A DNA stretch of 27,022 nucleotides. Origin: a virus. The DNA lies in the IMG/VR virus record IMGVR_UViG_3300048775_000015, positions 1-27,022 of that record. One strand, 5' to 3'. How positions within the stretch are numbered: the first letter of the stretch is position 1; every line of letters begins with the position of its first letter. Of the stretch, positions 351 through 27,022 are shown one piece after another. The notes under the pieces are model-generated. The model searched no databases. It was given only the letters and a program-made list of their open reading frames with translations, and was not told the origin of the DNA. The translations under genes were made by a program, and so were the position numbers.

Positions 351-695
351 TCAGACAGGGCCAGGCAGCTTGCCGCCGCCCAGCATTCCCAGCATCCCCA
401 TAATTCCTTGCATGTTGGACTGCATGACCTCCTCGGCCTTGCGTTCGGCTTCGTTGACTGCGGCCACCACCAGGTCCTCAAGCATTTCCACATCCGGTTG
501 GCCGCCGCTGAGGCCCACGACAGCAGAGGGGTCGATATGCAACTTGAGGAGTTGCTTCTTGCCGTTCATCGTCGCGATGACGGCGCCGCCGCCGCTGCTT
601 GCCTCGATCACAGTCTGGGCCATCTTGCGATGGATTTCCTCCTGCATCTGGCCGGCCTGGGAGATCATCTCTTGAATCTTGAAGGGGTTGATCAT
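351..695 (-). CDS. ybaB: YbaB/EbfC family nucleoid-associated protein
   Basis: This 114-aa protein has the full length and layout of YbaB/EbfC proteins, which are small DNA-binding dimers associated with the nucleoid. The N-terminal helix (residues 1-35, MINPFKIQEM then QAGQMQEEI) is followed by a beta region with the family pattern around GGGAVIATMNGKKQLLKLHIDP. A helix follows (VEMLEDLVVAAVNEAERKAEEVM), then a Met/Gly-rich tail. The start has an AGGAA ribosome site about 8 bases upstream. In many bacteria ybaB sits between dnaX and recR; here neither is visible and the upstream side faces phage genes. This suggests that the prophage boundary lies between 696 and 1002, or that the host order differs. 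The family assignment is firm; the biological role in this host is inferred from the family. Confidence 0.93.
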   Translation of the reverse strand: MINPFKIQEMISQAGQMQEEIHRKMAQTVIEASSGGGAVIATMNGKKQLLKLHIDPSAVVGLSGGQPDVEMLEDLVVAAVNEAERKAEEVMQSNMQGIMGMLGMLGGGKLPGPV

Positions 696-4482: not shown

Positions 4483-5289
4483 ATGGAAACTCTCAAGATC
4501 ACAAAAGCTGATCTAAACGAGCGGAACGAATACGCCCGCTCACGCGACCTTGAATTTGAAGGCCATATCGAAATCGAAGCATCGCTCGGGCGGGTCACCG
4601 TGCTCGGATTCATCCGCGCCGCCGGGAATTTGGCGATCGAAGCTGGCGGCTGGATCAAAGCTGGCGGCTGGATCGAAGCTGGCGGCTGGATCAAAGCTGG
4701 CGACGGGATCAAAGCTGGCGACGGGATCGAAGCTGGCGGCTGGATCAAAGCTGGCGGCTGGATCAAAGCTGGCGGCTGGATCAAAGCTGGCGACGGGATC
4801 GAAGCTGGCGACGGGATCAAAGCTGGCGGCTGGATCGAAGCTGGCGGCTGGATCAAAGCTGGCGGCTGGATCGAAGCTGGCGGCTGGATCAAAGCTGGCG
4901 GCTGGATCAAAGCTGGCGGCTGGATCAAAGCTGGCGACGGGATCGAAGCTGGCGACGGGATCAAAGCTGGCGGCTGGATCGAAGCTGGCGGCTGGATCGA
5001 AGCTGGCGGCTGGATCAAAGCTGGCGGCGGGATCGAAGCTGGCGACGGGATCAAAGCTGGCGGCGGGATCGAAGCTGGCGGCGGGATCGAAGCTGGCGGC
5101 TCCCTAAACGCGGGATTGGCAATCAAAGCGAAAGCGGGGATCACGGTCAAGCTCCGCATCTTTGCTGGCCTCTGCACCTGGCGGCTACCGAAACCCGAGG
5201 AGCAGGTTATCGAGTGCGCCGAACTGATCGAGGGCACTGTGTGTTTCGGTGAACTGAAACTCCTCCCCGCCAAGACTAAAGCCGCCTAA
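4483..5289 (+). CDS. Hexapeptide-repeat protein, predicted beta-solenoid
   Basis: This 268-aa protein has a 53-residue N-terminal part (METLKITKADLNERNEYA...), then 25 tandem six-residue units of the form A-G-[G/D]-[W/G]-I-[K/E]. A degenerate edge (AGGSLN, AGLAIK) and a 60-residue C-terminal cap follow. One Ile per six residues with small residues between is the spacing of beta-solenoids, so I predict a rigid rod whose face carries alternating Lys/Glu and Trp. Similar short-repeat proteins (IEAG/IKAG) are familiar to me from prophages of Proteobacteria, but I know no demonstrated function. It has an AGGAG ribosome site (4472-4476) 6 bases before the ATG. Two other frames across the repeat (4550-5107 plus, 4464-5273 minus) are also open, a by-product of the 18-base period. 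The reading frame here has the non-repetitive ends and fits the operon. Confidence 0.8.
   Translation: METLKITKADLNERNEYARSRDLEFEGHIEIEASLGRVTVLGFIRAAGNLAIEAGGWIKAGGWIEAGGWIKAGDGIKAGDGIEAGGWIKAGGWIKAGGWIKAGDGIEAGDGIKAGGWIEAGGWIKAGGWIEAGGWIKAGGWIKAGGWIKAGDGIEAGDGIKAGGWIEAGGWIEAGGWIKAGGGIEAGDGIKAGGGIEAGGGIEAGGSLNAGLAIKAKAGITVKLRIFAGLCTWRLPKPEEQVIECAELIEGTVCFGELKLLPAKTKAA
4642..5091 (+). repeat. 18-bp tandem repeat array, 25 units
   Basis: Twenty-five in-frame 18-bp units (GCTGGCGGCTGGATCAAA and variants) follow each other without a gap. Nearly all variation sits in two places: GGCTGG versus GACGGG (with GGCGGG in late units), and AAA versus GAA. Such near-identity means recent expansion or homogenisation. 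A 26th, degraded unit follows at 5092. Confidence 0.95.
4724..4998 (+). repeat. Higher-order duplication inside the 18-bp array
   Basis: Units 6-11 and units 14-19 have the same order of variants (W-K, W-K, W-K, D-E, D-K, W-E). With shared flanking bases, about 131 bp (4724-4854) recurs exactly at 4868-4998, offset by 144 bp or eight units. This shows that blocks of units, not only single units, were duplicated. Confidence 0.8.
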
Positions 5290-8622: not shown

Positions 8623-8648
8623 TTTTCAGCCACTTTCCGCGCTAGACT
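8623..8648 (+). promoter_or_regulatory. Possible promoter before the packaging genes
   Basis: TAGACT at 8643-8648 resembles a -10 box and lies 9 bases before the ATG at 8658, which has no Shine-Dalgarno sequence. The only -35 candidate, TTTTCA (8623-8628), is 14 bases away, which is short. The gap 8566-8657 is the only real break between early and packaging genes, so a promoter here is sensible, but this call is weak. Confidence 0.3.
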
Positions 8649-8657
8649 GGCAAACAA

Positions 8658-9014
8658 ATGGCAAAGAAACATGTATGGAGGGGCATGGGGCAGACGGTGA
8701 TTCTGGTGGCGTATGGCGAGTACGGCCGGAGAGTGGGCGAGTCGCATCACCGCTCGTTATACCCCGACGCGCTGGTGGAGAAAATGCGGGATATGCGCGA
8801 GTTCGATCACCTCACCTACTCTGAAATATCGCGGCGCACAGGCGTTAACCTTCGCAGCGTCGCCATGATCTGCACCTACATGCGCCGCAACTGCCGCGTA
8901 GACCACTACAAGAAAGTCATCGTCGAGGTACCGGACGAGGACGCAAGAACAAGCCGGATGACCACCTCTGAAAGAGAGCAGCTTAGCTTTACCTGGGGCG
9001 GTCTCAATGGCTAG
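8658..9014 (+). CDS. Helix-turn-helix protein upstream of terminase
   Basis: This 118-aa protein has a clear HTH in the middle: LYPDALVEKMRDMREFDHLT then YSEISRRTGVNLRSVAMICT (about residues 34-74). The YSEISRRTGVNLRSV pattern is a helix-turn-recognition helix. Such proteins directly before terminase genes may regulate late genes or act as a packaging recognition factor. It overlaps the small terminase gene by 8 bases. A basic segment (RRNCRVDHYKK) follows the HTH. No ribosome site is seen before the ATG. Confidence 0.7.
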   Translation: MAKKHVWRGMGQTVILVAYGEYGRRVGESHHRSLYPDALVEKMRDMREFDHLTYSEISRRTGVNLRSVAMICTYMRRNCRVDHYKKVIVEVPDEDARTSRMTTSEREQLSFTWGGLNG

Positions 9015-9522
9015 GCCAAGCAAACTGACAGATAAGCAGAAGTCGGAGATTCAGCGCCGGTACATCGCGGGAGAAACGACTCGTGAACTGGCAAGAGCTT
9101 TCAAGGTGGGACAGGCTACGATTTCAACGCTAGTTTCCGGTCGAACGAAAACTATCAAAACGCTTGCAGGGCAGATAGTTGCGAACGATGCGCAATTGGC
9201 TTCACTGCCGGTTTCCGATCAGTGTTCGGTAATGACGCTGGTTGATCAACTGAAAAGTATCTCAAGGGGACTCGCAGCCGCTGCTGACCACAACGCGCAG
9301 ACGGCAGCAAGACTCGCGAAGGTCGCCAACGAACGGTCATCGCTCCTGGTCGACCTAGGTGAAGGGCAGATCGATGAGGCCGACCTCAAGAGTGTGGCCA
9401 TGCTGGTCGAGACTGCGAACCGCGCCAGCACCATCGGCGTAAACCTGCTCAACGCAAACAAAGACAAGGCCAGCGTGGGGGAACTCACGCTCGAACAGTT
9501 AATCACAGGAGACGCGAAATGA
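9007..9522 (+). CDS. terS: Probable terminase small subunit
   Basis: This 171-aa protein begins with an HTH (KSEIQRRYIAGETTRELARA, then FKVGQATISTLVSGR; residues 12-46). A long helical central part and an acidic C-terminal region follow (ANKDKASVGELTLEQLITGD). An N-terminal HTH followed by helical oligomerisation segments, close to the large terminase gene, is typical of small terminases, which recognise the packaging site on phage DNA and feed it to TerL. The sequence is not a strict family match, so the call relies partly on position. Three very small ORFs separate it from terL. Its stop overlaps the next mini-ORF in an ATGA junction. Confidence 0.65.
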   Translation: MARPSKLTDKQKSEIQRRYIAGETTRELARAFKVGQATISTLVSGRTKTIKTLAGQIVANDAQLASLPVSDQCSVMTLVDQLKSISRGLAAAADHNAQTAARLAKVANERSSLLVDLGEGQIDEADLKSVAMLVETANRASTIGVNLLNANKDKASVGELTLEQLITGDAK

Positions 9523-9763: not shown

Positions 9764-9943
9764 ATGCCAGACACGACGAGCACAGCCACAACTACGACCA
9801 CTGCCACGACCACATCCACCAGCACGGCCGGCACAACAGCGGCGGTAACAAGCGGTCCGATGAACACCGTGCAAAAGCGGCCGGCAAGCATGACCTACCG
9901 GCAGCCCACCCCGGCGCAGAAGTCCAGCCGCAGAAAGAATTGA
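9764..9943 (+). CDS. 59-aa Thr-rich small protein before terL
   Basis: An ATG at 9764 opens a 59-codon frame whose first 30 residues are mostly Thr, Ala and Ser and whose last part is basic (PAQKSSRRKN). Its stop overlaps the terL start (TGATG), the same coupling as elsewhere in the cluster. No ribosome site of note precedes it, and low complexity makes coding status uncertain. It could simply lead ribosomes into terL, whose own ribosome site is weak. Confidence 0.4.
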   Translation: MPDTTSTATTTTTATTTSTSTAGTTAAVTSGPMNTVQKRPASMTYRQPTPAQKSSRRKN

Positions 9944-11436
9944 TGAACGCCGCAACAGCCAGAATCCGCGAGTGGAAGCTAGACCCGGTGAAGTTTGTGC
10001 GTGAGGTGTTCCATGCCGAGCCTGACGCTTGGCAGGTTGACGTGTTGAATATCGCGGGCAGACCGGGCCGCAAGCGCATCGCCATGAAGGCCTGCGCCGG
10101 CCCCGGCAAGACAGCAGTGCTTGCATGGATAGGCTGGCATCGCCTGGCCTGCTTCGCAGCCAAGAACGAACACCCCAAGGGAGCCGCGGTATCGATCACC
10201 GGCGACAACCTGCGAGACAATCTCTGGGCTGAGCTTGCGCGCTGGCAGAATGAATCGCCGTTCCTGCTTAAGGCTTTCCAGTGGCGAGCCGAACGCATCA
10301 CCGCCAGAGACCATCCGGAGACCTGGTTCCTTGCCGCCAAGGGCTGGGCCAAGTCTGCCGACCTTGAGACCATTGGGCGCACGCTCAGCGGCCAGCACGC
10401 CCGCTACCCGTTCTACCTGATCGACGAATCCGGCGACATACCGCCCAACATGATCAAGAGCGCCGAGCAGGGCCTGACGAGCTGCGAGGACGGCCTCATC
10501 ATCACCGCGGGCAACACCACCTCGCAGACTGGCCTGCTCTATGAGGTCACAACCCGGGCACGCGCCAACTGGGACGTCATCAGCATCACCGCTGACCCGG
10601 ACGACCCTAAACGCACGCCTCGTGTCGATCTCGATTGGGCTAAAGAGCAGATTGCACTCTATGGCCGTGAGAACCCCTGGGTAATGGCCTACATCTTGGG
10701 CCAGTTCCCGCCGGGCTCGATCAATGCGCTCCTAAGCGTGGAAGAGGTTGAGCGGGCCATGGACCTGCATCCGAGGCTGGAGAATTACGCGTGGGCGCAG
10801 AAGCGGCTGGGAATCGACGTGGCCAGATTCGGCGATGATCGTACGGTGATCTTCCCGCGCCAGGGCATTGTGTCGTTCCTGCCGACCATCATGCGCCATG
10901 CTCGCGACTCGGCGGTATCGGTGGACATAGGCAACCGTGTCATGGCGCGGCGCAATGAATGGGCACGCGATAGCATGAAGGAGTTCCCGGAGTTGCAGGG
11001 CGACTTTGAGTGCCTCACCTTCTTCGACGACACGGTGGGATGGGCGCATGGAGCGGTGGACTTCCTTCGTGCCTCTGGGTTGAGTCCCTATGCTATCCGC
11101 TTCGAAAATAAGCAGACGACGGACGACCGGTACTTCAACCTCCGGGCCGAGATGTGGTTTGGGATGGCAAATTGGATCAAGGCTGGGGGGTCGCTGCCGC
11201 CGATCCCGGAGATGGTCGCAGAGCTCACCTCGCCCACGTATGGATTCAAGGAAGGCAAGATGATTATCGAGAGCAAAGACCAGATCAAAAAGCGCCTAGC
11301 GCGTTCGCCTGACCTTGCCGACGCCCTGGCTCTGACCTTTGCTATACCGGATGCGCCCGCTGGCGTGAAAAGGATGCTGGGCGGCAGCTCTGGAAACGGC
11401 AAGCCGAAAGAGTACGACCCATACGCCAGCATCTAG
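9943..11436 (+). CDS. terL: Terminase large subunit
   Basis: This 497-aa protein is the ATPase-nuclease motor that packages phage DNA into the prohead through the portal. The N-terminal ATPase shows a Walker A-like loop CAGPGKT (residues 51-57, with Ala-50 where many have Gly). Walker B is FYLIDES (157-163, D161 and E162) and the coupling motif is TAGNTT (188-193). The C-terminal RNase H-like nuclease has GIDVARFGDD (290-299, D292), FFDDTVG (360-366) and SPDLADALAL (455-464), supplying the metal-binding aspartates. The length is normal. I start at the ATG 9943 (TGATG overlap) rather than at an in-frame TTG one codon earlier. It is the last gene before the first leaderless-type promoter. Confidence 0.93.
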   Translation: MNAATARIREWKLDPVKFVREVFHAEPDAWQVDVLNIAGRPGRKRIAMKACAGPGKTAVLAWIGWHRLACFAAKNEHPKGAAVSITGDNLRDNLWAELARWQNESPFLLKAFQWRAERITARDHPETWFLAAKGWAKSADLETIGRTLSGQHARYPFYLIDESGDIPPNMIKSAEQGLTSCEDGLIITAGNTTSQTGLLYEVTTRARANWDVISITADPDDPKRTPRVDLDWAKEQIALYGRENPWVMAYILGQFPPGSINALLSVEEVERAMDLHPRLENYAWAQKRLGIDVARFGDDRTVIFPRQGIVSFLPTIMRHARDSAVSVDIGNRVMARRNEWARDSMKEFPELQGDFECLTFFDDTVGWAHGAVDFLRASGLSPYAIRFENKQTTDDRYFNLRAEMWFGMANWIKAGGSLPPIPEMVAELTSPTYGFKEGKMIIESKDQIKKRLARSPDLADALALTFAIPDAPAGVKRMLGGSSGNGKPKEYDPYASI

Positions 11437-11440
11437 GCAG

Positions 11441-11479
11441 GTACACATAACCCTGGCTCATGCCCGCTAGCTTAGGAGC
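11441..11479 (+). promoter_or_regulatory. Leaderless-type promoter element, copy 1
   Basis: The element is GTACACATAACCC (11441-11453), 13 unconserved bases, then CTAGCTT (11467-11473), ending 6 bases before the ATG at 11480. The second copy at 15476 has both blocks identical and the same spacings. TAGCTT occupies -12 to -7 if transcription starts at the A of the ATG, exactly the place of a -10 box. The only Shine-Dalgarno-like string (AGGAG, 11474-11478) stands 1 base from the ATG, too close to work. No standard -35 box is seen; ACACATAACCC lies where one would be. Confidence 0.65.
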
Positions 11480-11932
11480 ATGAGCACGCCTCCCACAATC
11501 CGGCGGATCAGTTACGCGCAGTTCTTGAGCGCCCCGAACGCCCAGGAACTCATCTCCGCGTATGCCGCCGAGTGCTTAATCCCCGACGCGCAGCCGCAGC
11601 ACCAGACCTATACGGCGCTGGAGCAGTCCGGCGCGTTCCAGGGCTTTGGCGCTTACGCTGGCGACGATCTGGTTGGGTTCGTCACCGTGGTGAGCAGCGT
11701 TATGCCGCACAACGGCAAGCGCGCCGCCACTGTCGAAAGCGTATACGTATCCCCTTCGCATCGCGGCTCCAGTGCCGGGAATGCCTTATTGTCCGCTGCC
11801 GAGCAGTACGCGGCAGAGTCTGGATGCGTGGTCATTCTCTATACCGCACGGGTCGATAGCCCGTTTGAAACAGTGCTCTCGCGCCGGAGCGGGTGTAAAG
11901 AGAGCCACACGGTGTTTTCGAGGTGGCTCTGA
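11480..11932 (+). CDS. GNAT-family N-acetyltransferase
   Basis: This 150-aa protein has the GNAT layout. GDDLVGFVTVVSSVMP (61-76) and TVESVYVSPSHRGSSAGNAL (84-103) are the central strands and the acetyl-CoA pyrophosphate loop. The loop RGSSAG has Ser where the RxxGxG/A consensus has its first Gly. The strand VVILYTAR (117-124) and the C-terminal SRRSGCKESHTVFSRWL are also family-like. It would transfer an acetyl group from acetyl-CoA to an unknown amine. It sits between terL and the portal, directly behind promoter copy 1, which is unusual for a morphogenesis block. It is likely made late and could modify virion or host proteins. The next gene overlaps its stop (TGATG). Confidence 0.85.
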   Translation: MSTPPTIRRISYAQFLSAPNAQELISAYAAECLIPDAQPQHQTYTALEQSGAFQGFGAYAGDDLVGFVTVVSSVMPHNGKRAATVESVYVSPSHRGSSAGNALLSAAEQYAAESGCVVILYTARVDSPFETVLSRRSGCKESHTVFSRWL

Positions 11933-12396
11933 TGAGCGCGAGCCTACAGACAATCACAGCGGCTCTTGTGCAGCCAAGCCCAGAGACGCTCGACAAACTG
12001 GCGGTCGTGCAGGAGTGGCTGCTCAAGCAAGAACAAGTCCCTATTGCTACCGAGCACATCCTGCATGGCGGAATGTATATCCGCACGATTCGGCTTCAGC
12101 CGGGAACCATCATGATAGGGTCCCTGATCAAAAAGGCCACTGTGCTTATCGTCAATGGGCGCACATCGGTGCTGGTCGGCGATGAACGCGCCGAACTGGA
12201 AGGATACAACGTGATTCCAGGATGCGCTGGCCGCAAGCAGCTATTTGTGACGCGTGGAGATGTAGAGATGACGATGATCTTCCCCACGCAGGCAAAGACG
12301 GTTGAAGAGGCCGAGAACGAGGTATGCGCGGAGGCTGATCTGTTGATGTCCCGTCAGGATAACAGCAGGGACACCATCCTGATAACAGGGGAGTGA
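11932..12396 (+). CDS. Cupin-like phage protein
   Basis: This 154-aa protein has a beta-rich centre: IRTIRLQPGTIMIGSLIKKA, TVLIVNGRTSVLVGDERAEL, YNVIPGCAGRKQLFVTRGDV, then EMTMIFPT (about residues 48-120). This is the strand and turn order of a small cupin barrel. Related cupin-like proteins occur near portal genes in other podoviruses. The usual cupin His motif is incomplete (HILHGGMY holds two His), so metal binding is uncertain. I use the ATG overlapping the previous stop, not the in-frame one 9 bases earlier. The C-terminal 30 residues are acidic and flexible. Confidence 0.65.
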   Translation: MSASLQTITAALVQPSPETLDKLAVVQEWLLKQEQVPIATEHILHGGMYIRTIRLQPGTIMIGSLIKKATVLIVNGRTSVLVGDERAELEGYNVIPGCAGRKQLFVTRGDVEMTMIFPTQAKTVEEAENEVCAEADLLMSRQDNSRDTILITGE

Positions 12397-12397
12397 C

Positions 12398-12649
12398 ATG
12401 AGCAACATGCGCAAGCTGGTGGTATTCAAATCGGACGGCGAGTTGCATGATCGGGCCGGAAGCTATCCGTGCCTGGTCAATTACAACCCGTTCACGCGAA
12501 CCGGCGTTTATGACGACGGTGTAGGGCACACCAGCGATGTCACGTTCGCGGTAGCAGCCAACTCGGCAGAGCTTAAGCAGCTTGAGTTGGATCAATTTGA
12601 CATCGTGGAACTGAGCGACGCCCAGACGCTCGCAGACTTGTTTTCGTAA
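12398..12649 (+). CDS. 83-aa hypothetical protein
   Basis: A GGGGAG ribosome site and a 1-base gap after the cupin gene support this small gene. The protein (MSNMRKLVVFKSDGELHDRA, then YPCLVNYNPFTRTGVYDDGV) appears as a compact beta-then-helix fold with an acidic C-terminus (SDAQTLADLFS). I do not recognise it. It lies in the short run of small genes before the portal. Confidence 0.65.
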   Translation: MSNMRKLVVFKSDGELHDRAGSYPCLVNYNPFTRTGVYDDGVGHTSDVTFAVAANSAELKQLELDQFDIVELSDAQTLADLFS

Positions 12650-12660
12650 GGAGCGTAACC

Positions 12661-13005
12661 ATGGCAGGAAGCGTATCAGCAGTGACAGCGACACTTATCG
12701 CGGCTGGCGTCGCGGCGGCTGGCGTCGGCGTGAGCGCATACGACGGCGCGAAAGAACAAGCTAACCAGAAGAAGTCATTAGCGGAAGAGACTCAGGCTAC
12801 CCAATCCTCCGAAGCCAACTCTCTCAGCACCGAACGCAAGAACGCGACGGCAGAGAATCAGGCGAATCAGCAATCGCCGGATACGTCCGCCGTCATGAAG
12901 GCCGCCGCCAACGCAGCCAAGACAGGCATCGGCTCAACCATGCTCACCGGATCGAGCGGCGCAGGAACCGGCACGCTCGGCGGCTCAACATTGCTCGGGA
13001 AGTAG
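12661..13005 (+). CDS. Small structural-type protein before the portal
   Basis: This 114-aa protein begins with a hydrophobic Ala/Gly/Val segment (residues 5-27, VSAVTATLIAAGVAAAGVGV). A Gln/Ala/Ser-rich middle follows, then the end KTGIGSTMLTGSSGAGTGTL and GGSTLLGK. I recall similar C-termini (TLLTG...LG..TLLG) in small proteins next to portal genes of several podoviruses, some described as structural. AAGGAG precedes the ATG. A virion or portal-associated role is likely but not shown. Confidence 0.6.
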   Translation: MAGSVSAVTATLIAAGVAAAGVGVSAYDGAKEQANQKKSLAEETQATQSSEANSLSTERKNATAENQANQQSPDTSAVMKAAANAAKTGIGSTMLTGSSGAGTGTLGGSTLLGK

Positions 13006-13011
13006 GAAACC

Positions 13012-14715
13012 ATGCCGACGAATCCCGATCTGCGCAACAACCTGCTCCGTCGCTGGGAAGCGCTCAAGACCGAGCGCAGCTCGTTCTGGGCGCATTGGCA
13101 GGAGATCACGACCTACATCATGCCGTGGAATGGCCGCTACTTCCGCCAGGACCGCGACAAGGGCCGTCGGCGCGCAAACGCGATCTACGATAACACCGGC
13201 ATCCGGGCGCTGAAGACACTTGGAGCTGGTCTCATGAGCGGCGCAACGTCGCCCGCCCGTCCATGGTTCCGCTTGGGCGTTCCCGACCCTGACCTCAATT
13301 CCTATCAGCCGGTCAAGCTGTGGCTCGATGACGTGACCACGCGGATGCATCAGGTGTTTCAGAAGTCGAATACCTATCGCGCTCTCCAGCAGGTCTACGA
13401 GGAACTGGGCGCGTTCGGCACCGGCGCTAGCATCGTCCTTCCAGACTTTGACAACATCATCCACCATTACCCTCTGACCGTGGGCGAATACGCGATTGCG
13501 ACCGACGCGCAGGGCAAGGTCTGCACGCTCTACCGCGAGTTTGAGATGACCGTGAGCGCGATGGTCAAAGAGTTTGGCTACGCCGAGTGCTCGCCTACCG
13601 TGCAAACGCTCTACGACGGCGGCAAGGGGCTGGACCAATGGATTCCTGTCATCCATGCAATCGAGCCTCGCGCCGACCGTGACCCTTCAAAGAAAGACAA
13701 CAAGAACATGGCCTGGGGCAGCTACTACTTTGAGTCGGGCGAAGGCAACGGTCAGATGCTGCGCGAGAGCGGCTTCAGGAACTTCCCGGCCATTTGTCCG
13801 CGCTGGTCTATCGCCGGGGGCGACATCTACGGCAACTCGCCGGGCATGGAAGCGCTGGGCGATGTGAAGCAGTTGCAGCATGAGCAGCTGCGCAAGGCCA
13901 ACGCAATCGACTACCAGACGAACCCTCCGCTTCAGGTTCCAGTGGCCATGAAGAACGTCGAAATCAACCGGCTGCCGGGCGGCACAACCTACTACGACGG
14001 TTCGTCGGCGTCTCCGATCAAAAGCGCGTTCGATGTGAATCTCAACCTGCAAGACATGCTGAGCGATATACAGGACTGCCGCGACCGCATCAAGCAGAGC
14101 TTCTTTTCTGACGTGTTTATGATGCTGGCGAACTCGACCAACCCGCAGATGACCGCTACCGAAGTCGCCGAGCGGCAGGAAGAGAAGATGCTCATGATGG
14201 GGCCGGTGCTCGAGCGCATCAACAACGAGGCCCTCCAGCCGCTCGTCGAAACCACCTTCACGCACATGATGGAAGTGGGAATGATCCCTCAATCTCCGCA
14301 AGAGATGCAGGGGCAGCCGCTCAATATCGAATTTATCGGCATCCTGGCGCAGGCGCAGAAGTCAATCGCCACCAACAGCGTAGACCGCTTCGTGCAGTCG
14401 ATGACGACGGTGGCGCAGGTGAAGCCCGAAGTCCTCGACAACTTCGATCCCGATGCATGGGCCGCGACCTACTCGGACATGATGGGAATCAATCCGAAGC
14501 TCATCGTACCCAGCGACCAGGTGCAAGCGACGCGTCAGGCCAAAGCCAAGGCGCAGGCCGCGCAGGAGCAGGCCCAGGCGATGCAGCAGCAGTCCGTGAC
14601 AGCCAAGAATCTCGCGCAGTCTCCCACGAGCGGCGGCGCTTCCAACGCCCTCAACGACCTGATGAACCAATACAGCGGATACGGCAGCCCCAGTCCGCAG
14701 GAGGTAGGACAGTAA
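13012..14715 (+). CDS. Portal (head-to-tail connecting) protein
   Basis: This 567-aa protein matches the T7 gp8-type head-to-tail connecting family. It forms the dodecameric ring through which DNA enters and leaves the capsid and on which the tail is built. The opening LLRRWEALKTERSSFWAHWQ then YIMPWNGRYF (about 9-45), the TGIRALKTLGAGLMSGATSP block with PWFRLGVPD (about 63-92), and the VYEELGAFGTGASIVLPD stretch are characteristic. The C-terminal 70 residues are Gln/Ala-rich (KAKAQAAQEQAQAMQQQ) and helical, probably the barrel. The length is typical. AGGAA precedes the start; the stop overlaps the following gene (TAATG). Confidence 0.92.
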   Translation: MPTNPDLRNNLLRRWEALKTERSSFWAHWQEITTYIMPWNGRYFRQDRDKGRRRANAIYDNTGIRALKTLGAGLMSGATSPARPWFRLGVPDPDLNSYQPVKLWLDDVTTRMHQVFQKSNTYRALQQVYEELGAFGTGASIVLPDFDNIIHHYPLTVGEYAIATDAQGKVCTLYREFEMTVSAMVKEFGYAECSPTVQTLYDGGKGLDQWIPVIHAIEPRADRDPSKKDNKNMAWGSYYFESGEGNGQMLRESGFRNFPAICPRWSIAGGDIYGNSPGMEALGDVKQLQHEQLRKANAIDYQTNPPLQVPVAMKNVEINRLPGGTTYYDGSSASPIKSAFDVNLNLQDMLSDIQDCRDRIKQSFFSDVFMMLANSTNPQMTATEVAERQEEKMLMMGPVLERINNEALQPLVETTFTHMMEVGMIPQSPQEMQGQPLNIEFIGILAQAQKSIATNSVDRFVQSMTTVAQVKPEVLDNFDPDAWAATYSDMMGINPKLIVPSDQVQATRQAKAKAQAAQEQAQAMQQQSVTAKNLAQSPTSGGASNALNDLMNQYSGYGSPSPQEVGQ

Positions 14716-15461
14716 TGAAAAAGATATGCAGTTTGTTGTTTGCCCTGTTGCTTCTGACGCCCGCCGCTTTCGGCCAGAATCCGCGCTGGACAGCGTCCGG
14801 CACCATCACCAACGCTTCAACCTCGGTCACGGTAACCTCGCGCGACTACGCTCTGGCTACCGTGACCATCCACGGCACCCATGCCGGTGTCACTCTCGTG
14901 TTTGAGTTTTCCGACGACAGCGGCACAACGTGGTATCAGGACCAGTGCGTCCGGTCAGACACTCCGATCATGGAGAACAGCGAGGCTGTCGCCGCCAATG
15001 CAACGCTCGAATGGGATTGCGGCGTGGCCGCCTCAACAAACTTCCGGGTGCGGTCTACGGCTTACACGTCAGGAAGCGCGACCGTCAATATCACCCTCAC
15101 CCAGGATCAGATTGAGCCGGCTGAAACCATCTCCATTGGGAATCAGGCTACATCGGTCCAGATACTGAGCCAAGCCGGAGCTGCGACGACGATCAAGACA
15201 TCTGCGGGGATGGTCTTCGGGGCCAGTCTGGTCAACAACAACGCCGCTGTGGTCTACGTCGAGTTCTTCAACACTAACAGTGTGACGCTGGGAACGACAG
15301 CGCCTGTGCTGGTGCTTGTGATCCCAGCATCGGGAACTCTGAATCTAGGCCCGACAGACACGGGATTGATCTACAACGCAACGGCGATCTCGGTTGCGGC
15401 TGTAACGGCATACACCGGGTCCACGGTGGGTTCTGTGACGGGATCGGTCTTCTACAAGTGA
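14715..15461 (+). CDS. Exported beta-rich protein inside the virion operon
   Basis: I start at the ATG overlapping the portal stop (TAATG), with AGGAGG 11 bases upstream. This yields 248 residues that begin with a textbook Sec signal peptide: MKK, a hydrophobic core (SLLFALLLLTP), then an AAFG-QN cleavage site. The mature protein has two parts. Residues 25-135 form a beta domain (VTVTSRDYALATVTIHGTHA, LVFEFSDDSGTTWYQ, FRVRSTAYTSGSATVNITLT) seen in many phage structural proteins. Residues 140-248 form a second Thr/Val-rich beta domain. Two cysteines (in DQCVR and WDCGV) could form a disulfide after export. A signal peptide on such a protein is unusual. It could act in the periplasm or on the cell surface rather than in the capsid. 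Confidence 0.75.
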   Translation: MKKICSLLFALLLLTPAAFGQNPRWTASGTITNASTSVTVTSRDYALATVTIHGTHAGVTLVFEFSDDSGTTWYQDQCVRSDTPIMENSEAVAANATLEWDCGVAASTNFRVRSTAYTSGSATVNITLTQDQIEPAETISIGNQATSVQILSQAGAATTIKTSAGMVFGASLVNNNAAVVYVEFFNTNSVTLGTTAPVLVLVIPASGTLNLGPTDTGLIYNATAISVAAVTAYTGSTVGSVTGSVFYK

Positions 15462-15475
15462 CGCAAAACAGGGTA

Positions 15476-15514
15476 GTACACATAACCCGGTCTGCCGTGC
15501 TCTAGCTTGGGATT
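15476..15514 (+). promoter_or_regulatory. Leaderless-type promoter element, copy 2
   Basis: GTACACATAACCC (15476-15488), 13 unconserved bases, then CTAGCTT (15502-15508), then 6 bases and a GTG start. Both blocks are identical to copy 1 and every spacing is equal; the 13-base spacers differ. No Shine-Dalgarno sequence is present. TAGCTT again falls at -12 to -7 relative to the start codon. It lies just after the exported-protein gene and would drive the Bbp19-like, scaffold and capsid genes. Confidence 0.7.
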
Positions 15515-15856
15515 GTGAGCAACTACGACCCTACCGATCTCGCCAGCCATGCGCTTGCGGAGAATGAAGCAGACCTCCGCAAGCGCATGGCTAGCGAAGT
15601 TGAAGAGTTGGACTTGAAGTGGCTCATGAGCAGCAAGCGTGGCCGCCGGATCGTTTGGCGGCTCTTGGAGCAGTCCGGGGTATTCCGGCTCTCGTTCAAC
15701 ACCAATGCGATGCAGATGGCGTTCAACGAGGGCAACCGGAACTACGGCAACCGCACCTTGAGTCTGATCCACGCGCACTGCCCTGAGCTTTACCCAGTTT
15801 TGGTCAAGGAGTCTACAAATGCCGGAAGCGACGGAAACGGTTCAAAATCCAACTGA
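15515..15856 (+). CDS. Bbp19-like phage protein
   Basis: This 113-aa protein starts at GTG and resembles the Bbp19 group of Bordetella phage BPP-1 and relatives. The core is DLKWLMSSKRGRRIVWRLLE (about 33-52), then GVFRLSFNTNAMQMAFNEGN and YGNRTLSLIHAHCPELYPVL. The function of that group is not established to my knowledge; it is encoded with head genes. The N-terminal 30 residues are acidic and helical. The start is set by promoter copy 2, whose -10-like box lies 6 bases upstream. The last 38 bases overlap the scaffold gene. Confidence 0.8.
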   Translation: MSNYDPTDLASHALAENEADLRKRMASEVEELDLKWLMSSKRGRRIVWRLLEQSGVFRLSFNTNAMQMAFNEGNRNYGNRTLSLIHAHCPELYPVLVKESTNAGSDGNGSKSN

Positions 15857-22855: not shown

Positions 22856-25056
22856 TGGCGCAAGCTACTGACATCTACGCACCGAGCGTAGCGCAAGACC
22901 CGAACCCGACGACCGCGCTCACTGCCGGGCGAATCGAGCCCATGCAGAACTATGCCCCTCAGCAGCAACAGCAGATGGGGCAAGCGGCCATGAAGGTCGG
23001 CGAGACCACCGACAATATCGGCGAGCGCATCCAATGGCAGCTTGACGACGCCAAGACCAAAGCGGCTGAGACGCAGTTCTTGCAGCAGGCCCAGCCGATC
23101 CTTCACGGCGACGGGACGGCCGACAATCCCGGTTACCTCAACTTGCGCGGCCAGACCGCCATTGACGGGTTCGATGACGCCAGCACGGCGCTTGCCAAGG
23201 CCAAGGCACAGGCGTATGGATCGCTCGATAACAAGTTCCAGCAATACATGTTCAATCGCGTGACCACAGCGCACTTGATGAACTTCGGCGCTGCGATGAG
23301 CGATCATCGCTTTCAGCAGAATGCGCAGTTCTCGGCGCAGGCCTCCCACGACAGGTCTCAGTCTTTGATCAAGCAGGCTGTCAACAATATCGACAGTATT
23401 GGGCAGGTGGACCAGGACGGAAATCCAACGGGCAATTACAACGCCATGTCTCAACAGGCGATTCAAGAGGCGCAGCACGAGGCGTTCATTGCCACCGGCG
23501 CAGGCCCCAAAGACCCTCAAGGGGTTGCGGCTGCTCAGTCAGTGACCACTCAGATCGCACTGGGAGTGGTCACGAAGATGATTGACGCTCACAACTACAA
23601 GGGAGCGCAGGCGTATTTTGACAGCGAAGACCAGCAGGGGCGCATCGATGGGGCCGTTGCTCGCGAGCTTGGGTCCGCCATCAAGCGCAACACGGACTCG
23701 GAAACCATCAAGGACGTAGCGAACAAGCTCATGGACAACCTGCTGCGTGCCAAGGCCGGACAGCCTACGGGGATCGATGCTCAGCTTCCTATTCAGGGCG
23801 GTTCCTATACCGTGAACAACAATGACGACAAGAGCCAGACATTCGTCGTTCCGCAGGGCACCGCAGTAACCGCCGCGGCCGATGGCAAAGTGGGCAGCAT
23901 CACCCAGGACAAGCCGGGCGGCCCGTACACGGTTGAAGTAACGCATTCGGACGGCTCAACAACACAGTACGGGAACCTCTCGGCAGTGAATTACAAGGCG
24001 GGCGATTCGGTGATGCAGGGCCAGCAGCCAATCGGCCTGACGGCAAAGGGGGGCCTCGATTACTCCATGGCCGACAAGGACGGCAAGGCTGTAGACCCGG
24101 CCAGCCAGATTCTTCCGGCAGTGAACCGAACGAAGTTCGCCGACCCGGCAGATGCGCAGACAGTCATCGATCAGATCAACAAAACGGACTATCCGCCAGA
24201 GATGAAAGCGCAGATGGCTTCCTATGTCGATGGCCAGCAGAAGATCAACTTCCGGCAGGTTGCCGAGAACAAGGCTCAGGTGGTGCAGGGCATTCAAGAC
24301 GCCTTCTACAGGTACGGGGATGAGCACAATGGGCCTGACGGACCGAAGTACAGCATGAATGCCCTCACCCCAACGCAGCAGCAGCAGCTTGAGGCAATCG
24401 ATCCCCAGAGACTGGCCCAGTTCAAGGGGATGGTGGCCAACGGATCGCCGAAGATTGACAATACCGACATTTTAGCCGGGTTCATCCTGCACCCGGATAC
24501 ACTCACCGTGGCCAACGTGCAGGCGCAAAGAAACAACCTGACTCCAGCGCGTTACCTATCCCTGCTGAGCGATGCGAAGAGCATGATGGATGCGCCCCAG
24601 AAAAGAATAGCGATTTCGATGGATAACGACCAGCTCGACCATATCCTGCTGACTACTCCTGGACTGAATAGGCTTGTGAACCCGCAAAGAGGGAGTCAGG
24701 ATCAAGCAGACTCTGTGCAGTTAAGGACGGCTGTACGTGATCAGATTGACCTGAACCAGAGGATTATTGGCAGAGAACTGACACGTGAACAAACTAGGCA
24801 GGTGATGATCGATATGGCAAAGGACAATGTGTCGATCCCTGGGATATTCAGCAAGCCCAAGGTGAGCGCGCTGGTATCTCCCGACGACATGAAGAAGGCC
24901 AGCGTGAAACTGACGAACGGACAGGTCATTAAACTTGCCGACATTCCAGCGTCGGTCCACGATTCGCTTGCTCAGTCTCTCGAACAGTCTGGATATGCGG
25001 CGTCCCAAGGGAATATCGCAGCTCTTTGGAACTCAAAAGGAAGGCCGAAGCAATGA
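22855..25056 (+). CDS. Large internal virion protein with degenerate M23-like domain
   Basis: This 733-aa protein fills the place of the second ejection protein (T7 gp15 position). Residues 1-310 are helical and Gln/Ala-rich. Residues about 313-420 look like an M23 (LytM/lysostaphin) peptidase fold: VPQGTAVTAAADGKVGSITQ, then VEVTHSDGSTTQYGNLSAVN and YKAGDSVMQGQQPIGLTAKG, then a DPASQIL end. The zinc-site residues seem lost. Where M23 has YxHLS this has YGNLS (N374), and where it has HLHFE this has GLDYS (G400, D402). Residues 420-733 are helical. The domain probably binds or shapes rather than cuts peptidoglycan. GGGAGG stands 9 bases before the ATG; the next gene overlaps its stop (ATGA). 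Confidence 0.75.
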   Translation: MAQATDIYAPSVAQDPNPTTALTAGRIEPMQNYAPQQQQQMGQAAMKVGETTDNIGERIQWQLDDAKTKAAETQFLQQAQPILHGDGTADNPGYLNLRGQTAIDGFDDASTALAKAKAQAYGSLDNKFQQYMFNRVTTAHLMNFGAAMSDHRFQQNAQFSAQASHDRSQSLIKQAVNNIDSIGQVDQDGNPTGNYNAMSQQAIQEAQHEAFIATGAGPKDPQGVAAAQSVTTQIALGVVTKMIDAHNYKGAQAYFDSEDQQGRIDGAVARELGSAIKRNTDSETIKDVANKLMDNLLRAKAGQPTGIDAQLPIQGGSYTVNNNDDKSQTFVVPQGTAVTAAADGKVGSITQDKPGGPYTVEVTHSDGSTTQYGNLSAVNYKAGDSVMQGQQPIGLTAKGGLDYSMADKDGKAVDPASQILPAVNRTKFADPADAQTVIDQINKTDYPPEMKAQMASYVDGQQKINFRQVAENKAQVVQGIQDAFYRYGDEHNGPDGPKYSMNALTPTQQQQLEAIDPQRLAQFKGMVANGSPKIDNTDILAGFILHPDTLTVANVQAQRNNLTPARYLSLLSDAKSMMDAPQKRIAISMDNDQLDHILLTTPGLNRLVNPQRGSQDQADSVQLRTAVRDQIDLNQRIIGRELTREQTRQVMIDMAKDNVSIPGIFSKPKVSALVSPDDMKKASVKLTNGQVIKLADIPASVHDSLAQSLEQSGYAASQGNIAALWNSKGRPKQ

Positions 25057-27022
25057 GCACTGGAAGCAGCGCGGACGCGTTACTGATTAGGCAGATGGCC
25101 CAGAGCGGGCAGCTGCCGGACACAGAAGTAGACCACAGTGGTCTTTATTCCAGCATCTACCAGGCCGCTGGAACGGACCCTAACTCAGCAGGGAAGCAGC
25201 AGCAGCTTTCCCAAAAGTCAGGGCTTGGACCTGTGCTCACAGCTAATGACCCCGTGGAAGCACAGCGGCGCGCTGCCGTTAGCGATCTGATGGAGCGCCG
25301 GCTAGAGTCGCAAAGCCCTATTCTCGCCCGGCAGCTTACGGACCCCAACTTTGCCAACATCGCGCATGATCAGCTCGACAACCTCTCGACGACCGAGAAG
25401 ATTTTCAACTGGTTCAAGATGGATAATGGCCAGTCAGCCGGGAGCGTTTACCGGAACGCCGTCAATAACAGCGACACCTCCGGCGCGGGATCAGACGGCC
25501 TCGCGGGATCGCCCCTCGCGGGACTCGGCTCCGTCATCGCTCACACCAACGCCGTTCATGATCTCTACCAGCCGTTTCAGCAGGGCGAACTCCAGTTTGA
25601 GAGAGGGATGCTTGGTATCAAGGCCAAGCGCGGCATAGCCACGGCTGACGACTGGAATCGTATACACCAGATTGATCAGACCCTCAGTGGTATGCATCCC
25701 ATTCAAACCCCCTTCGGATCGTGGGGAGACCGCGCCATCACCACCCTTGGCAACATGAGCGGCAACATGCTGCCGATGGTGCCGCGAGCGGTCGCCGTCG
25801 GCGCGGCGGGCGCCGGCATCGGGGCCGGAGCCGCAGCGGCTGGCATCGTGACCGCGCCCACGCTACCAGCGGCTGCCCTGGGCGGCTTCGGATTCGGCTT
25901 CAACTCAGAATTCCTGGCGCAGAACTACGACATGATGGCGGGCAACGAGTACATTGACCTGCGCAGCAAGGGAGTTGATGAGAATCGGGCGCAGTGGGCT
26001 GCTGGAACCACAGCCGCCGTCAACACGGCGTTCCAGGCTGGCTTTATGCGGATCGCTGGGAAGCCGCTGGGCGACCTCGCCAGCGGGGCGTTGAGCCGTG
26101 CCGTGGGCGAGAAGATTGCAGCGGCGATGACTGTTCCGACCGCGGCAACGGCGATAAAGAGCGCCGTGCTCGGATGGATGAAGAACACCGCCATAGGCAC
26201 CGGCGAAATGAGCGCACAGACCGTCGTGAGCAGGGTTGGCGAGGATTGGGCGAAGCAGGATGGCTTAGGCGGAACATGGAGCGACCTGACCTCGCCTGAG
26301 TTTCTTCACCAGATGGGTGACTCGCTCGTGAACGGGCTTATTGCGGCGGGCACGATGAGCACGACCGGCTCCATGCTGGGCCTGCACGCGGACATGGAGC
26401 GGGCGGCGGATGCGGATCGCTCGGCAAAGTTCTTCACAGCGCTCTCTGAAAACGCCGCCGACTCCGAAGTGCGCAAGCGCAACCCGAACGCCTATGAGAA
26501 CTTTGTCGCTGCCCAGGCGGACGGCTCCGGTGCGGAGACGACATACATCGACGGTCAGAAGATGGCCGAAGTACTGCACCAGACCGGCGTCGATCCGATG
26601 GAGGTCGAGAAGGTCGTGCCGGGATTCTCCAAGCAGCTCATCGAAGCGCAACCGGGAGGTGACGTGGAGATTCCCACGGCCAAGTTTGCGGCGCACATCG
26701 CCGGTACGGACTTGGGCAACGCGATGACCGAGCATATGCGCCTGGACCCCGACGCCATGAGCGTGGCCGAGGCAAAAGACTTCCAGTCCAAGGTTCAGGA
26801 GATGCAGGCCAAGGCCCAGCAAAGCGCTGTCGAGAAGATGGCTGCGGATGCCGATTTCGGACAGAGCGCCAAGGCCGTCGAGGACAAGATTTACGAGCAG
26901 TTGAAGGCTACCAGGTCTTTACCTGCCGACGTGGCGCGGACCAATGCTGTCCTGCATAGCCGCATGATCGCCTCGCTGGCGGCGGAGGAAGGCAGCACGC
27001 CGGAGCAGTTCTACGAAAAGTA
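25053..27022 (+). CDS. Giant internal/ejection protein, C-terminus outside window
   Basis: The ATG overlaps the previous stop (ATGA) and AAGGAAG lies upstream. The frame stays open to the right edge, giving at least 656 residues. Residues 1-120 are soluble and helical. About 236-285 is a long Ala/Gly-rich hydrophobic stretch (PRAVAVGAAGAGIGAGAAAA, then LGGFGFGF) that could insert in a membrane. About 290-400 is helical with further Ala/Gly patches. About 480-570 has TYIDGQKMAEVLHQTGVDPM and GDVEIPTAKFAAHIAGTDLG, a pattern I recall from giant phage and prophage polyvalent or ejection proteins. It fits the T7 gp16 position, so delivery into the host at infection is likely. Any enzymatic domain would be in the missing part. 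Confidence 0.75.
   Translation, partial: MSTGSSADALLIRQMAQSGQLPDTEVDHSGLYSSIYQAAGTDPNSAGKQQQLSQKSGLGPVLTANDPVEAQRRAAVSDLMERRLESQSPILARQLTDPNFANIAHDQLDNLSTTEKIFNWFKMDNGQSAGSVYRNAVNNSDTSGAGSDGLAGSPLAGLGSVIAHTNAVHDLYQPFQQGELQFERGMLGIKAKRGIATADDWNRIHQIDQTLSGMHPIQTPFGSWGDRAITTLGNMSGNMLPMVPRAVAVGAAGAGIGAGAAAAGIVTAPTLPAAALGGFGFGFNSEFLAQNYDMMAGNEYIDLRSKGVDENRAQWAAGTTAAVNTAFQAGFMRIAGKPLGDLASGALSRAVGEKIAAAMTVPTAATAIKSAVLGWMKNTAIGTGEMSAQTVVSRVGEDWAKQDGLGGTWSDLTSPEFLHQMGDSLVNGLIAAGTMSTTGSMLGLHADMERAADADRSAKFFTALSENAADSEVRKRNPNAYENFVAAQADGSGAETTYIDGQKMAEVLHQTGVDPMEVEKVVPGFSKQLIEAQPGGDVEIPTAKFAAHIAGTDLGNAMTEHMRLDPDAMSVAEAKDFQSKVQEMQAKAQQSAVEKMAADADFGQSAKAVEDKIYEQLKATRSLPADVARTNAVLHSRMIASLAAEEGSTPEQFYEK

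Follow-up and report, generated by a model that had tools for sequence, protein, structure and literature searches.

What are two identical sequence elements, each ending a few bases before a start codon, doing among the late genes of an uncultured phage? The question is raised by IMG/VR record IMGVR_UViG_3300048775_000015, of which positions 1 to 27,022 were analysed (27,022 nucleotides, hereafter the window). The sequence covers part of a BPP-1/BcepC6B-type podovirus genome, with portal and major capsid proteins that match PF12236 and PF20911. At its left end lies a YbaB/EbfC gene (351-695, minus strand; PF02575, E=3e-24), probably host DNA beside a prophage, and the phage may have inserted next to ybaB. 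Further in, positions 4483-5289 (plus strand) encode a 268-residue protein of near-perfect (K/E)AGGWI(K/E)AGDGI repeats with a weak match to filamentous haemagglutinin repeats, and a second, overlapping frame is also open and repetitive; at the right end the contig cuts off a large polyvalent protein (LPD22, PF18834) of which only the start is present (25026-27020, plus strand). The features that bear on the question are these:

8658-9014, plus strand: Bbp27-like helix-turn-helix (HTH) protein, candidate activator (HMM E=7e-24, match placed at 8646-9011; co-occurrence; covariation; place before the terminase genes)
9007-9522, plus strand: HTH protein following the regulator, probable terminase small subunit (TerS) by position (position, HTH matches)
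9940-11436, plus strand: terminase large subunit, TerL (phrog_2, E=4e-20), ending 4 bases before the first block
11441-11453, plus strand: upstream block, copy 1, GTACACATAACCC (exact match; homologous block in relatives)
11468-11473, plus strand: -10 box TAGCTT of copy 1, within CTAGCTT at 11467-11473 (TAnnnT at offset 15 or 16 in relatives)
11474-11479, plus strand: discriminator AGGAGC, with the inferred transcription start at the A of ATG 11480, hence leaderless (geometry, inference)
11480-11932, plus strand: GNAT-family acetyltransferase, Bbp24 homolog, directly after TerL (PF00583, E=3e-11; start conserved)
15476-15488, plus strand: upstream block, copy 2, GTACACATAACCC (exact match)
15503-15508, plus strand: -10 box TAGCTT of copy 2, within CTAGCTT at 15502-15508 (exact match)
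15509-15514, plus strand: discriminator GGGATT, with the inferred transcription start at the G of GTG 15515, hence leaderless (geometry, inference)
15515-15856, plus strand: Bbp19-like protein (PF25181, E=6e-16; start conserved)

A reading made from the sequence alone had described the pattern GTACACATAACCC-N13-CTAGCTT-N6-start at 11441 and 15476, and the description is exact: both copies are found as reported, and 100 dinucleotide shuffles of the 27 kb contain none. No further copy was found in the whole record with either the exact or a relaxed pattern. TAGCTT does lie at -12 to -7 of both start codons and meets the TAnnnT criterion for the -10 box of a canonical sigma-70 promoter. The remark that the upstream block does not resemble a sigma-70 box also holds, as only one or two of the six positions of TTGACA are matched at 16-18 bp spacing in the two window copies and an extended -10 is absent from both. 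The accompanying claim, that the two genes lack a usable Shine-Dalgarno sequence and most of their neighbours have one, needs some tempering. Neither gene has one, the AGGAG before 11480 being only 1 base from the ATG and so unusable, and most other late genes of the window do, but the contrast is not absolute, as the genes at 9007, 9940 and 17626 also score none. The start codons themselves are backed by conserved N-termini in relatives, MS..IRR in the GNAT protein and xS.YDPTDL in Bbp19.

Relatives recovered by capsid searches (36 IMG/VR loci and 6 genome loci) place the two copies in a wider setting. Many share a common plan, namely an 11-base block, 15 or 16 bases, TAnnnT, 6-8 bases and ATG or GTG, for which the general consensus is GTRYVCRTRHC - N15/16 - TAnnnT - N6/7 - ATG/GTG. 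In BPP-1 and in many metagenomic phages the genes downstream of it are again GNAT, following TerL, and Bbp19, and this architecture persists down to about 40% Bbp19 identity. Each phage reuses its own 11-mer at its sites. That of the window is GTACACATAAC, which lies at roughly -39 to -29 relative to the inferred start, with the block-to--10 spacing of 16 rather than the commoner 15, at which the block falls at -38 to -28. The nearest relatives with an upstream region (L007-L010, Bbp19 79% identical) have GTATACATAAC, and others include GTGCGCGTATC, ATACCCGTAAC and AGACCCATAAC. Chance, an inserted repeat and a moron were rejected as origins of the window copies, because GNAT and Bbp19 are core genes that stand in the same place in nearly all relatives.

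Named phages give a similar picture. In BPP-1 the block is GTGCCCGTGCC, found without mismatch at four places: ahead of TerS, GNAT, Bbp19 and the tail-fibre gene bbp9. The TerS site points to ATG 26255, internal to the annotated gene; in the window no block lies upstream of the gene at 9007-9522. The start of bbp9 lies 27 bases on and its promoter sits inside a terminator-like hairpin (L048, about 6184-6125, minus strand), a perfect hairpin followed by TTTTT in which terminator and promoter share bases. Limnohabitans phage DC33 (PQ492659.1, L050), filed under Inoviridae although its genome is that of a BPP-1-type podovirus, carries four copies, and Jess A three; the Jess A -10 boxes depart from the consensus, and at one of its three block copies none lies at 15 or 16. 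In five loci the -10 reads TACGAT (L115:12505, L117:4934, L121:2883, L124:2427 and L130:12254) and overlaps codons of an apparent conserved TerL C-terminus (YDPYA), which looks like coding sequence doubling as promoter. TerL itself is only 27-28% identical to that of the window in L036, L037, L041 and L044, where the block, its presumed reader Bbp27 and the head genes are kept; on this comparison the terminase seems to have been swapped without a change of late control.

Exact searches of IMG/VR gave no match to the window-type pattern containing RTGAGC and no exact relative of the window 11-mer, which, like the window's spacing of 16, counts against the promoter reading favoured here; the three matches to the exact 16-base pattern, at intragenic or odd places in unrelated phages, were dismissed as chance. 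An early scan whose pattern included a start codon barely discriminated in total counts (170 matches, against 165 in a reversed control), although its high scorers were all real sites, and later scans were stricter. A blind scan of all IMG/VR contigs with GTGCSCGTAYC-N15-TAnnnT-N6/7-ATG found 88 stretches, compared with 10 when the block was permuted with its make-up and degeneracy unchanged; an earlier control, a reversed block without degenerate positions, gave 4 matches, is not comparable and was replaced by the permuted block. BPP-1-type late genes are present at 78 of 87 new loci, the nine without them being about the number that the control predicts, and at 80 of 91 sites the ATG is the start of a Bbp19, GNAT or Bbp23 homolog. 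The element is a member of a widespread promoter class, its spacing, conservation and gene placement are matters of observation, and the first interpretation of it was largely right.

That the element is a promoter follows from how its parts move relative to one another. In a survey of 41 distinct phages with one mismatch allowed in the block, the late strand carries 113 block copies and the opposite strand 4; 14 of the former belong to a coding repeat in BPP-1 bbp10 and are not followed by a -10. TAnnnT occurs at offset 15 from the block in 67 cases, 16 in 8 and 20 in one, and otherwise at none from 5 to 30, a test that is partly circular, since only sites with a -10 at 15 or 16 went into the block consensus. 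A -10 is present at 90 sites. At 55 of them a start codon follows after 5-8 bases, with a gap of 6 or 7 in 51 (43 ATG and 12 GTG among the 55), and the other 35 have a longer leader. Only 7 of the 55 adjacent-start sites have a Shine-Dalgarno sequence, compared with 22 of the 35 longer-leader sites (p=1.4e-6). Because the -10 spacing stays fixed while the start codon moves, the element reads as a promoter and not as a translation signal. Where the -10 is adjacent, the first transcribed base would be that of the start codon, and leaderless messages are therefore expected. The suggestion of leaderless control, made at first for two genes, gains from the recurrence of the same element at fixed spacing in dozens of divergent phages and from the loss of the Shine-Dalgarno sequence only at adjacent starts. 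The messages are probably leaderless, a judgement from geometry without RNA data in which the 5' ends are inferred; leaderlessness is frequent and not universal, as over a third of the sites are leadered.

Two other views of the start-codon end have to be set against this. An element that belongs to the start codon and acts through RNA or translation, by recruiting ribosomes or as a regulatory RNA, would account for the near-fixed gap of 6-7 bases and the missing Shine-Dalgarno sequence at 55 of the 90 sites, yet at the other 35 the start is 9-80 bases on, usually with a Shine-Dalgarno sequence, and the block-to-TAnnnT spacing is unchanged; the GNAT start directly follows the element in some phages and comes after a leader in others (L050, L094), and Rfam gives no match in the window. 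We regard such an element as most improbable. A variant that does not exclude the promoter and regulator preferred here places the true start several bases off, leaving a very short leader. Start choice can shift by a few bases and gaps of 7 and 8 bases do occur, but the 6- or 7-base gap at 51 of 55 adjacent sites equals the normal distance from -10 to +1, and a leader so short would have no room for a Shine-Dalgarno sequence anyway; it remains possible, if unlikely. Leaderless translation is established in Caulobacter, which has 375 leaderless mRNAs (PMC4117421). GUG-started leaderless messages are translated poorly in E. coli and Caulobacter (PMC9031893), and the GTG start of copy 2 is a counterpoint to the leaderless reading.

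What, then, reads the block? Region 4 of the sigma factor would sit at this position. The best candidate is the Bbp27-like protein, which in the window is a 118-residue protein with a single HTH that meets both criteria for the family, an HMM match and a place just before the terminase genes. In BPP-1, Bbp27 has 78 residues and likewise lies just before TerS (L048, 26340-26573, minus strand). Bbp27 homologs were found only in motif-bearing phages. Across non-redundant phages with enough upstream sequence, 16 have both regulator and motif, 10 have neither and none is discordant (p=1.9e-7, which is optimistic, as the phages share ancestry and their independence is overstated). L015 seemed to lack the protein only because it is cut, and the remainder of the contig (L082) has it. 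The association also holds in the other direction. Loci fetched by the protein alone carry sites in 59 of 79 cases, the rest being mostly short or cut after the gene, and zth2-2, MW202640 and MW202722, chosen by the protein, have four sites each, whereas phiV10, UFJF_PfDIW6, BcepC6B and AF, without a Bbp27-like protein, have no sites in place. UFJF_PfDIW6 (L136) has a Q-like antiterminator before its late genes (39318-39680), and late control may have been exchanged within the phage group. BPP-1-type head or tail genes accompany the regulator at all 75 loci that extend far enough downstream, and the regulator system has thus been seen only in this group.

A second line of evidence is that residues of the protein change together with bases of the block (41 protein/block pairs, from 56 before clustering). 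Residue 20 against base 7 gives, over the 56 pairs, 37 N-G, 12 R-A, 5 N-A, 1 R-G and 1 R-T. At residue 58, in the recognition helix, D goes with G at base 5, M with A and K mostly with C; residue 17 covaries with base 3 and residue 19 with base 10. The scores are high for N20 and base 7 (z=12) and K58 and base 5 (z=9.8), and identity-stratified odds ratios reach 14 and 4.7 for these pairs and 19 for G54 and base 4, the median over all residue-base pairs being 0.9. The window agrees, with R20 and M58 accompanying A at bases 7 and 5 of GTACACATAAC. Since equally high scores arise for a few pairs that involve nearly invariant block positions or residues beyond the HTH, single residue-base contacts are leads and not results. 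Co-occurrence and covariation are thus observed, whereas binding of the block by the Bbp27-like protein, and activation upon binding, are inferred from them.

The sequence-only reading had left the choice between a phage activator and an alternative sigma factor. The former gains support from the co-occurring and covarying HTH protein, in the absence of binding data. A complete alternative sigma factor is unlikely, given a -10 of the ordinary TAnnnT kind and a co-occurring protein with just one HTH; sigma region 2 is absent from the 118 residues of the regulator, with only weak similarity to region 4. All Pfam and PHROG matches of the family are weak (HTH_38, resolvase HTH, sigma region 4, Mor and the HTH tail of HNH endonucleases), and sequence and fold searches of the PDB with the regulator returned generic HTH matches only. 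AlphaFold is confident only in a three-helix HTH core, and no inference was drawn from the models.

Co-occurrence and covariation are blind to sign, and repression cannot be excluded from sequence. The Bbp27-like protein might be a repressor that covers the -35 place and silences the late genes during lysogeny or in early infection; the block overlaps the polymerase footprint, and many small HTH phage proteins repress. Against this, the core promoter has neither a -35 nor an extended -10 and should be weak unaided, the block has no conserved -35 box beside it, and the gene sits with replication and terminase genes, not beside cI. We find a repressor doubtful, slightly more so than the short leader considered above. 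The reader of the block might instead come from the host, as an alternative sigma factor or some other factor, with the Bbp27-like protein merely travelling along, a view that is not excluded biochemically and to which the weak region-4 similarity of the HTH lends something. It is hard to reconcile with a protein that is present in every motif-bearing phage with enough sequence and whose residues change together with each phage's own 11-mer, with hosts that span alpha- and betaproteobacteria, and with a plain TAnnnT, and it seems to us very unlikely, if a little less so than an RNA-level element. An activator that replaces the -35 contact is the simplest reading of a plain -10 without a -35, the MotA box of T4 offering a parallel.

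In the middle promoters of T4 (MotA/AsiA) a box for a phage protein likewise replaces the -35 and sigma-70 reads the -10, although here binding is inferred. The MotA box is centred near -30 (PMC6755090), whereas the block here has 11 bases centred near -33/-34, one small HTH protein stands in place of the two-domain MotA, and the promoters are late, mostly leaderless and without an extended -10; no Pfam MotA match above cutoff was found in the regulator, the only protein searched for it. Phage Mu encodes comparable small HTH activators, Mor and C, which work beside a sigma-70 -10. The Jess A copy has a weak Mor match (PF08765, 14.2 bits against a cutoff of 24.9) and several regulator copies weakly match PHROG late activators, but all these matches fall below curated cutoffs, and the block here has no dyad symmetry and reaches -28. 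Another likeness is to the HTH tails of HNH endonucleases (phrog_6156, phrog_20467), to which 31 of 43 Bbp27-like domains are similar (GExHxNAKLTD plus HTH). This explains why Bbp27 is annotated as an endonuclease, yet the Bbp27-like proteins have 78-118 residues and consist of the HTH region only, without a nuclease domain. The endonuclease label is that of RefSeq, and MW202722 labels its homolog a 54S ribosomal protein. In leaderless genes of Caulobacter and in lambda cI the -10 is similarly placed for transcription to start at the start codon; what differs is that leaderlessness here recurs at structural-gene promoters across one phage group.

Taken together, the two elements would be late promoters of a BPP-1-like podovirus, at which host RNA polymerase with its main sigma factor would read the -10 TAGCTT and the 11-base block at about -39 to -29 would replace the missing -35 box. 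The block would be bound by the small Bbp27-family protein encoded just before the terminase genes, which would recruit or stabilise polymerase, so that late genes switch on as it accumulates. They would run in separate units, one from GNAT to portal (GNAT, Bbp23-like, ORF83, ORF114, portal) and one from Bbp19 to capsid and tail (Bbp19, protease/scaffold, major capsid, Bbp16, tail), with further units at TerS and the tail fibre in relatives. The proposal that two copies split these genes into units is supported in so far as the element stands before the same unit-leading genes in dozens of divergent phages. We consider it likely that a Bbp27-like activator at the -35 place and sigma-70 at the -10 drive leaderless messages here, on evidence that includes no transcript or binding data. 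A bolder proposal, for and against which we see the case as evenly balanced, is that of an undescribed family of Bbp27-like activators, related to the HTH tail of HNH endonucleases, that replaces sigma-70 region 4 contacts at leaderless late promoters in many hosts, with a specificity code in which residues 17, 19, 20, 54 and 58 read block bases 3, 10, 7, 4 and 5, and with versions that are mutually orthogonal between phages.

The open literature yielded no account of Bbp27 or of late promoters in BPP-1, subscription papers not being covered. BPP-1 is the model phage for diversity-generating retroelements. This phage and a large uncultured group now gain a named candidate for their activator, at present mislabelled an endonuclease, and BPP-1 gains four defined late promoters. 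If the reading is true, these phages would hold a compact family of activators with many natural, probably orthogonal, activator-promoter pairs, and leaderless translation would be used repeatedly for virion genes.
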